Part shown: piece after piece, positions 13,733-15,473 of the stretch
Position numbering within the stretch: position 1 is the stretch's first letter
Layout: each line of letters opens with the position of its first letter
Assembly: GCF_023699475.1 (NCBI RefSeq)
Contig: NZ_JALXFV010000004.1
Span: 1 to 43,227 of the forward strand
Length of the DNA: 43,227 bases
Source: Halomarina rubra
Lineage (GTDB): Archaea > Halobacteriota > Halobacteria > Halobacteriales > Haloarculaceae
Reading direction: 5' to 3'
The notes under the pieces: generated by a model
Told to the model about the DNA's origin: nothing
Seen by the model: the letters and a program-made list of their open reading frames with translations, nothing else
The model's database searches: none
Translations under genes and position numbers: made by a program

Positions 13733-14542
13733 ATGGAACCTATGTTGACGAGTGATAGCTACGCCCGAACCGGACTGGACGCCCTCGCGCTGAAACCGAC
13801 CGAACACGACCTCGACGTGGCGGCGAGCCTCGACGTCGAGACGCTCGCGCTCGACTACGAGGGCCGCGCACACCTCCCGACCCCGGCGACCCTCGAAGCA
13901 CTCGCGGCCGACCGGACGCTCCACCTCACCGCGCCGGTCCGCGCCGACGGCTTCGACCCGCTTGGCGACGACTCCCTGCTCCGGGAGGTGCCCGAGACGG
14001 TCGCGTTGACGTTCGTCGCCGGCCACGGCGCGTACCTCGACGAGGAAGAGCGCGCCCGCGCCATCGCTCCCAGACTGCGAGCGGCGCTGGACTGGCACGC
14101 CGACCGAGCGAACGAGACGAAACCGTGGGTCGGCACCGAGAGCGTCGAGCGCCTCGCGCTGTCGGCGAGCGAGGAGGCCGTCCAGTACGACCTGCTCGGC
14201 CGCTCGACGGCCGGCGAGGTCCGCGCGATGCGCCGGATGGGGTTCGACGGCGACCTCGCGGTGTACGCTCCGACGGTGCTCACCGACGACGACGACGCGC
14301 TACTCGACGCGCTGGGCGGGTACGTCGCTCGTCGTGGCCCGGTCCGGGCGGCACTCCCCGAGGACGCGTCGACGGACGCGAGTGCGACCGGTCGCGCGCG
14401 GGAGGTGTTGCTCGCGGCGAGTCGTGACTACGCGCTCGCCGGCACGCCGGACGACGTGCGAGACCAGGTCGAGTCGCTCCGCGAGGCGGGCGTCGACACC
14501 GTCGTCGGCTACCCGGCGCGTGGACTGACGCGGTTCCGATAG
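13733..14542 (+). CDS. Conserved haloarchaeal protein, luciferase-like C-terminus (possibly DUF7388 family)
   Basis: A 269-aa soluble acidic protein of unknown function. It starts MEPMLTSDSYARTGLDALAL; the second Met at 13742 is an equally possible start. The C-terminal part, SRDYALAGTPDDVRDQVESL followed by REAGVDTVVGYPARGL, strongly resembles the C-terminal segment of F420-dependent luciferase-like oxidoreductases, where the protein checks a cofactor-proximal loop before a final helix. The rest (about residues 20-200) alternates strands and helices in a barrel-like manner, but the substrate or cofactor residues are not recognisable. I recall a haloarchaeal family DUF7388 of this length. It stands alone; the hsp20 repeats begin 30 bp downstream. 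Confidence 0.7.
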   Translation: MEPMLTSDSYARTGLDALALKPTEHDLDVAASLDVETLALDYEGRAHLPTPATLEALAADRTLHLTAPVRADGFDPLGDDSLLREVPETVALTFVAGHGAYLDEEERARAIAPRLRAALDWHADRANETKPWVGTESVERLALSASEEAVQYDLLGRSTAGEVRAMRRMGFDGDLAVYAPTVLTDDDDALLDALGGYVARRGPVRAALPEDASTDASATGRAREVLLAASRDYALAGTPDDVRDQVESLREAGVDTVVGYPARGLTRFR

Positions 14543-14604
14543 AAGAGCGGTCGTCGGCGGGGCGACCCGGTTACGACTCGCTACTGCTCGTCGCTGTCGA
14601 CGAC

Positions 14605-14621
14605 GTGAATCGGAGATTCAC
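14605..14621. other. Hairpin 1 in the hsp20 downstream repeats
   Basis: GTGAATC-GGA-GATTCAC, a perfect 7-bp stem with a 3-nt loop, lying 17 bp after the end of the 20-bp core of copy 1. No T-run follows on either strand. It may be an RNA 3'-end structure or a protein-binding palindrome. Confidence 0.8.
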
Positions 14622-14656
14622 TGGCCGACGACTCGCTACTGCTCGTCGTCGACATC

Positions 14657-14673
14657 GCGAGACTACGTCTCGC
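14657..14673. other. Hairpin 2 in the hsp20 downstream repeats
   Basis: GCGAGAC-TAC-GTCTCGC, again a perfect 7-bp stem and 3-nt loop at the equivalent place in the second repeat unit. The stem differs from hairpin 1 at several positions on both arms, so pairing has been kept while sequence changed. Confidence 0.8.
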
Positions 14674-14690
14674 TGGCAGACAGCGACTCG

Positions 14691-15272
14691 CTACTGCTCG
14701 TCGCTGTCGACCCCGTCGAACTCGTCGTCCTCGGGACCGTCGGGAATCTCCTCCTCGCTCAGACCCGTCTCGGTGTCGGCGTCGCTGCCGACGTCCGCGG
14801 TGGAGTCCGTGTCGGTCGTGGACTCTGCCGCTCCCGTCGCGTCCTCGTCGGCGGTGTCGTGGGGCACCGACTCGTCGCCGACGGTGACCTCGCGACCGGA
14901 CTCCGTCTTGGGGATGTGGACGCGCAGCGTCCCGTTCTGGGTGACGGTGGCGTCGGCCTCGCGGGCGTCGACGTCGGCGTCGGCCGGGAGGTCGACCGAG
15001 CCGTCGAGCGAGAGCCCCCGTCCGGGCAGGCGCATCTCGTAGTCGTCGTAGAACTCCCGGAAGCGGTCGACGCGGACGAAGACGGTGTTCTCGTCGAACC
15101 GGACCTCGACGTCCTCGCGGCGGACGCCGGGGGCGTCGAACACCGCGAGGTAGGCGTCGTCGCTCTCCAGCAGGTCGACCTTCAGCGGTGTTCGCTCCTG
15201 CCAGCGGGCCGACGACCGGCCGATACCTTCGAGGACGGCACTCTCGACGCGCTCGCCCAACTCCTTGAACAT
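14691..15272 (-). CDS. hsp20: Small heat-shock protein, Hsp20/alpha-crystallin family, with acidic tail
   Basis: ATP-independent holdase chaperone that binds unfolding proteins. The crystallin domain runs from about residue 25 (PLKVDLLESDDAYLAVFDAP) to 125, with the family's DAPGVRREDVEVRF strand-loop, the PGRGLSLDGSVDLPADADVD segment and the closing NGTLRVHIPK strand. After that comes an unusual acidic Thr/Ser/Asp/Glu tail of about 60 residues ending EFDGVDSDEQ. I prefer the Met at 15272 (MFKELGERVESAV): it matches how relatives start, and a TATA element (CCTAATAC on the minus strand) lies 27 bp before it. The ATG at 15293 would add seven residues (MTSQPTS) and leave that TATA only a few bases upstream. 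The 3' end is part of a three-copy repeat. Confidence 0.88.
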   Translation of the reverse strand: MFKELGERVESAVLEGIGRSSARWQERTPLKVDLLESDDAYLAVFDAPGVRREDVEVRFDENTVFVRVDRFREFYDDYEMRLPGRGLSLDGSVDLPADADVDAREADATVTQNGTLRVHIPKTESGREVTVGDESVPHDTADEDATGAAESTTDTDSTADVGSDADTETGLSEEEIPDGPEDDEFDGVDSDEQ

Positions 15273-15295
15273 ACTCGTCGGTTGGCTCGTCATGG

Positions 15296-15303
15296 TATTA
15301 GGC
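15296..15303 (-). promoter_or_regulatory. TATA-like element of hsp20
   Basis: Reads about CCTAATAC on the minus strand, centred 27 bp before the Met codon at 15272. It sits in the 20-bp gap between hsp20 and the small zinc protein gene and supports the shorter Hsp20 start. Confidence 0.5.
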
Positions 15304-15314
15304 GTTCCCCGAGT

Positions 15315-15473
15315 TCAGAGGACGATCTCTTCGAGACCGTCCTGGGTGCCGCAGTACGGGCAGGTGAAGTCTTCGACGCCGGTCTCGCTGGGCATGTCGT
15401 AGGTGTAGTGGAGTTCGAACATGTCCAGTTCGCACGCCGACTCGGTACACTTGACCTCCATCGTCTTGGGCAT
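15315..15473 (-). CDS. Small zinc-binding protein (possibly DUF7559 family)
   Basis: A 52-aa protein, too short for most ORF callers, upstream of hsp20 on the same strand. It begins MPKTMEVKCTESACELDMFE and ends with a CPYC knuckle (residues 38-41). Together with Cys9 and Cys14 (C-x4-C) this gives four Cys for one zinc. The motif order and the LHYTYDMPSETGVEDFTCP core match a haloarchaeal family I remember as DUF7559. Its TATA element is shared with the divergent DUF429 gene. Function is unknown. The 17-bp gap to the hsp20 region would allow cotranscription, although hsp20 seems to have its own TATA. Confidence 0.85.
   Translation of the reverse strand: MPKTMEVKCTESACELDMFELHYTYDMPSETGVEDFTCPYCGTQDGLEEIVL

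Follow-up and report, generated by a model that had tools for sequence, protein, structure and literature searches.

A young array of predicted stem-loops derived from the end of an hsp20 gene in a haloarchaeal convergent gap

Organization of the hsp20 gene end

What kind of element arises when the end of a stress gene is repeated just behind its own stop codon? This question is raised by a 148-bp gap (14543..14690, considered on both strands) in a 43,227-nt stretch, hereafter the window, of a haloarchaeal genome of 4.07 Mb. The gap separates hsp20 (14691..15293, minus strand), an open reading frame of 200 aa ending in DSDEQ-TAG and matching Pfam HSP20 (PF00011, E 1.1e-8), from a convergent neighbour on the plus strand (13733..14542) that codes for a DUF7388 family protein (PF24114, E 1.5e-112) with a weak luciferase-like match. 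Both genes, together with a 52-aa DUF7559 gene, make up a conserved neighbourhood (13733-15473). The distance between hsp20 and DUF7388 is larger than 1.1 kb in some other genera, and Natronorubrum has a gene for an FAD-binding oxidoreductase between the two. The sole match in a plasmid collection was a distant Natronorubrum relative of the hsp20 neighbourhood, and a search of the literature on haloarchaeal hsp20 untranslated regions found nothing relevant.

A sequence-only reading of the window had described three repeats 55 bp apart, the third being the end of hsp20, and had attributed them to tandem duplication of the gene end. The analysis bore this out: the core copies start at 14574, 14629 and 14684, with start-to-start distances of 55 and 55 bp, and the third (14684-14711) coincides with the end of the hsp20 reading frame, including the stop codon TAG (14691-14693, minus strand), an arrangement that supports the duplication. 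The sequence CGACTCGCTACTGCTCGTCG (19-20 bp) is identical in all three copies, and the outer two have 28 bp in common. The two perfect hairpins reported between the copies, with 7-bp stems and 3-nt loops, were also confirmed. The first, B1 (14657..14673; GCGAGAC-TAC-GTCTCGC), starts 17 nt past the hsp20 stop, and the second, B2 (14605..14621; GTGAATC-GGA-GATTCAC), is placed 69 nt after it in the convergent gap; both are strand-neutral.

The earlier reading overlooked that the repeat unit, too, forms a hairpin around the stop codon. The resulting A hairpins present a 9-bp stem interrupted by a tandem G·A mismatch and closed by an AGUA loop (GAC-GA-GC-AGUA-GC-GA-GUC). Hairpin A1 (14679..14708, minus strand), with the tandem G.A/A.G followed by 2 bp and the loop, includes the hsp20 stop codon, reaches a local fold of –20.6 kcal/mol and forms part of the region-wide MFE structure, while A2 (14624..14653, minus strand), with the same core and loop, folds at –18.8 kcal/mol. 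In the third core copy, A3 (14574..14593, minus strand), the inner stem alone pairs; its 3′ side consists of the older downstream flank, which explains the loss of the outer pairing. In the orientation of hsp20, the chain is A1-B1-A2-B2-weak A3, five stem-loops whose neighbours lie 2-5 nt apart. Read-through of the UAG was also considered; the frame continues as far as a TAA within the third copy, but it would encode an arginine-rich peptide unlike hsp20.

As perfect 17-bp palindromes, B1 and B2 share the pattern GYGARWCnnnGWYTCRC, and their regular spacing would suit an array of palindromic DNA sites for a binding protein, an option also raised by the sequence-only reading. It found no support and is considered very improbable, given that the loose B pattern has only six further matches in 4 Mb, that the array is located between two convergent gene ends and in no promoter position, and that its conservation is highest in the A core, which is imperfect as a DNA palindrome.

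Folding and uniqueness of the array

Single hairpins with 7-bp stems and 3-nt loops are unremarkable in the window, where 11 were seen and about 12 expected. Taken as a whole, the hsp20-sense strand of the array folds with a z of –4.4 relative to dinucleotide shuffles, and the array ranked 4 among 11,176 segments of 150 nt by GC-corrected folding energy, with the GC content regressed out and 0.84 Mb of stretches from the same genome as background. In this 0.84 Mb, the array repeat was the only three-copy cluster of exact 18-mers without coding-type periodicity. Moreover, the hsp20-sense strand reaches –72.2 kcal/mol vs –64.3 kcal/mol for the other strand, a difference due to the G.A tandem, which reads U.C on the latter. 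This advantage of 8 kcal/mol, together with the uncorrected G.A tandem, suggests that the chain acts in RNA.

The genome-wide search for the core that had been proposed as a check returned the three copies at this locus only, the next best match having 2 mismatches. This result bears on a further alternative, that a mobile or repeated REP-like element was inserted behind hsp20. Bacterial REP/BIME palindromes are mRNA 3′ stabilisers dispersed in many copies; like the array, they are clustered between or behind genes and could block 3′ exonucleases. The array also consists of repeated palindromic units, and the genome has other hairpin clusters. Nevertheless, the unit is restricted to one locus and derived from the gene itself, being the gene's own end and partly present in the nearest congener (G004), and the hits of a covariance model of the unit elsewhere were unrelated hairpins, so that such an insertion ranks as the most improbable of the explanations considered here.

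Other attempts to assign the unit to a family were equally unproductive. No Rfam family was matched up to E 1. The inspected non-self hits of the covariance model among 59 genomes corresponded to unrelated or coding-region hairpins, its E-values being inflated by the GC-rich composition. The A core was also tried as a widespread CTCGC-nnn-GCTCG motif, which is near background in the same genome, with 58 occurrences vs about 36 in Markov sequence.

The locus in congeners

The same convergent pair was found in six congeners, with gaps of 10, 39, 42, 61, 66 and 114 bp. None of the six presented the array or a perfect hairpin in the hsp20/DUF7388 gap, nor was the same structure, kept with covariation, found at these orthologous loci, so the array is private to this genome. 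In the nearest congener, G004, whose Hsp20 is 79% identical, one degraded A core was kept: of the 21 nt that follow the stop, 17 are preserved vs 58% identity at fourfold sites (P 0.02), although 2 of the 9 A-stem pairs are broken. No B hairpin occurs at the homologous place, and the G004 gap folds no better than its own shuffles. Therefore, from its absence in the six congeners and the single degraded core in G004, the array is young.

The flank GTAACCGGGTCGCC resembles GTAACTGGTCGCC, which lies directly behind the stop in the congener G006, and this likeness suggests that the duplications were inserted between the stop and the old flank. In G006 the hsp20 locus appears twice with identical match values, near the ends of contigs C1 and C2 (L006 and L012), representing either a duplication or an assembly overlap.

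Paired changes between the units

The sequence-only reading had further stated that the two B stems differ on both arms with pairing intact. In fact, unit-to-unit alignment revealed six arm differences between B1 and B2, corresponding to three whole pairs, all of them complementary; that is, 3 of the 7 pairs were exchanged on both sides and none was broken. When six arm changes were placed at random, all Watson-Crick pairs were kept with P ~7e-4 (0.07% of trials), or P 2.8e-3 (0.28%) if G-U was allowed. Since the arms alone are insufficient proof of homology, we infer it from the equivalent position of B1 and B2 and the GCCAG-GA--C that they share on the left side. The A hairpins changed in a comparable manner: A1 carries a 3-nt block (AGC with GCT) on both sides of its stem that A2 lacks, and the 55-bp spacing stays equal despite two indels because these 3-nt indels offset each other.

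From such differences selection for pairing had been concluded, a step that the present evidence does not bear. The comparison involves two paralogous units of one genome, no congener has the array, and in G004 the B hairpin is missing and A pairs are broken. Templated correction of a quasi-palindrome would give a similar picture. A neutral origin is the strongest competitor, less probable than a functional 3′ region and still a serious candidate. Slippage would have copied a 55-bp quasi-palindromic gene end, and templated mutation by strand switching would have kept the arms complementary, leaving an array devoid of function. Slippage is known to act on palindromes and short direct repeats, the array occurs in one genome only, and the congener gaps, from 10 to 114 bp, are without constraint. 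Nevertheless, the tandem G.A mismatch of the A stems is unaltered in all three copies, though correction should have erased it, which argues against simple templated repair of DNA. Moreover, the core shows 100% identity, against differences at more than one third of positions in the B segments, and triloop hairpins are in excess at 3′ ends throughout the genome.

Hairpins behind haloarchaeal genes

This excess was verified with gene calls from a simple home-made finder on 0.84 Mb of the same genome and, at 0.4 Mb per genome, on a congener (G002) and a genome from another family (G037). Perfect hairpins with a 3-nt loop and a stem of at least 7 bp were counted, and the expectation was taken from a Markov model. 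In convergent gaps, 13 were seen against 3.4 expected in the own genome, 13 against 1.6 in G002 and 6 against 1.4 in G037; the corresponding values for codirectional gaps were 31/9.0, 12/4.0 and 19/5.0, and those for divergent gaps, with a weaker excess, were 8/4.7, 9/3.1 and 5/2.6. With stems of at least 9 bp, the codirectional gaps of the own genome held 15 hairpins for 0.6 expected. The bias toward gaps that hold 3′ ends had the same direction in the congener and also in the other-family genome, where the divergent gaps showed it less clearly. The convergent excess in the own genome persists without B1 and B2 (11 vs 3.4, P 8e-4). The density of hairpin starts is 0.78 per kb over the 20 nt that directly follow stops and 0.08 per kb over the 20 nt that precede starts, about a tenfold difference, and several other hairpins of this genome begin 15-22 nt past a stop, the range to which B1, at 17 nt, belongs.

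Clusters of perfect 3-nt-loop hairpins were also observed at L136 (18277-18427 and 19063-19160), L101 (19758-19805) and L102 (6542-6680), and at C15 and C11 of the own genome. A CCAGAACGC-nnn-GCGTTCTGG hairpin occurs in clusters at 9 places in the own genome and in 21 of 59 haloarchaeal genomes, with 0 for the reversed control; the same clusters also hold GCCAGAAA..TTTCTGGC, GTCAGAGC..GCTCTGAC and a large outer stem with TTTTA/TAAAA. In L136 (18229-19180), two hairpin clusters in inverted order flank about 600 bp without a called gene and sit between two minus-strand genes, like the ends of an element. Like the hsp20 array, the CCAGAACGC-nnn-GCGTTCTGG clusters consist of perfect triloop hairpins behind genes, 4-6 nt apart; unlike it, they are dispersed, have another sequence and recur among genomes.

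A putative 3′-end element

A T-run is the usual archaeal termination signal. Between 14401 and 14800 no T or A run of at least 4 was found on either strand, and a U-tract intrinsic terminator was thereby ruled out. The array is a real, local structure. Its kind is ordinary, whereas its form, the product of recent duplication, is unusual. On balance, it is somewhat favoured that it represents a structured 3′ region common to the convergent hsp20 and DUF7388 mRNAs, serving as a 3′-end signal or protector; the order of duplication, the action at the RNA level and the termination or protection function are all inferred from sequence. The excess of triloop hairpins behind stops, together with the position of B1 at a common distance, makes a 3′-end role the most economical reading. 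The hsp20 end, comprising the stop and the next ~35 nt, already foldable around the stop, would have undergone two tandem duplications in this lineage, and the resulting chain of stem-loops might act as a 3′-end element in RNA. Such a chain could slow RNA polymerase or define a zone of termination or processing between the convergent genes, and the hsp20 mRNA would be left with a stem-loop tail resisting 3′ exonucleases. A more specific version, in which the duplicated stop-codon hairpin of this stress gene changed compensatorily in its copies and the stop hairpin plus its tail make hsp20 termination or stability depend on temperature or salt, is regarded as unlikely.

The 3′-end or processing element proposed by the sequence-only reading thus fits the genome-wide hairpin excess and is weakened by the comparison among relatives, the array and the B hairpins being missing from the six congeners with the same gene pair. 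Also counting against a 3′-end role are the lack of a T-run in the gap, the mild hairpin enrichment in divergent gaps of two other genomes, the conclusion on pairing being drawn from two units only, and the G004 gap folding worse than shuffles.

Comparable structures have been reported in other systems. Hairpins immediately precede 503 mapped 3′ ends in Haloferax volcanii, and one of them, when tested in vivo, caused termination of 59% of transcripts (Berkemer et al. 2020, PMC7237163). The array, whose stem-loops would likewise lie at haloarchaeal mRNA 3′ ends, has their location, behind a stop in a gap holding gene 3′ ends. In contrast, the H. volcanii hairpins were mapped with RNA-seq data, and no tandem copying of a gene end was described for them, whereas the array comprises five chained stem-loops known from sequence. 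Work cited in PMC8303175 linked mRNA stability to a stem-loop close to the gvpA stop. Clustered-hairpin terminators proposed in PMC8355165 also place several adjacent hairpins past the stop; these are bacterial and, unlike the array, not described as made by duplication of a coding end.

The concentration of 3-nt-loop hairpins behind haloarchaeal stop codons is testable now with existing Term-seq data. How mRNAs end at archaeal convergent genes lacking a T-run is poorly known, and, on the favoured reading, this locus would provide a fresh case of a 3′-end structure born from the duplication of a gene's own end.
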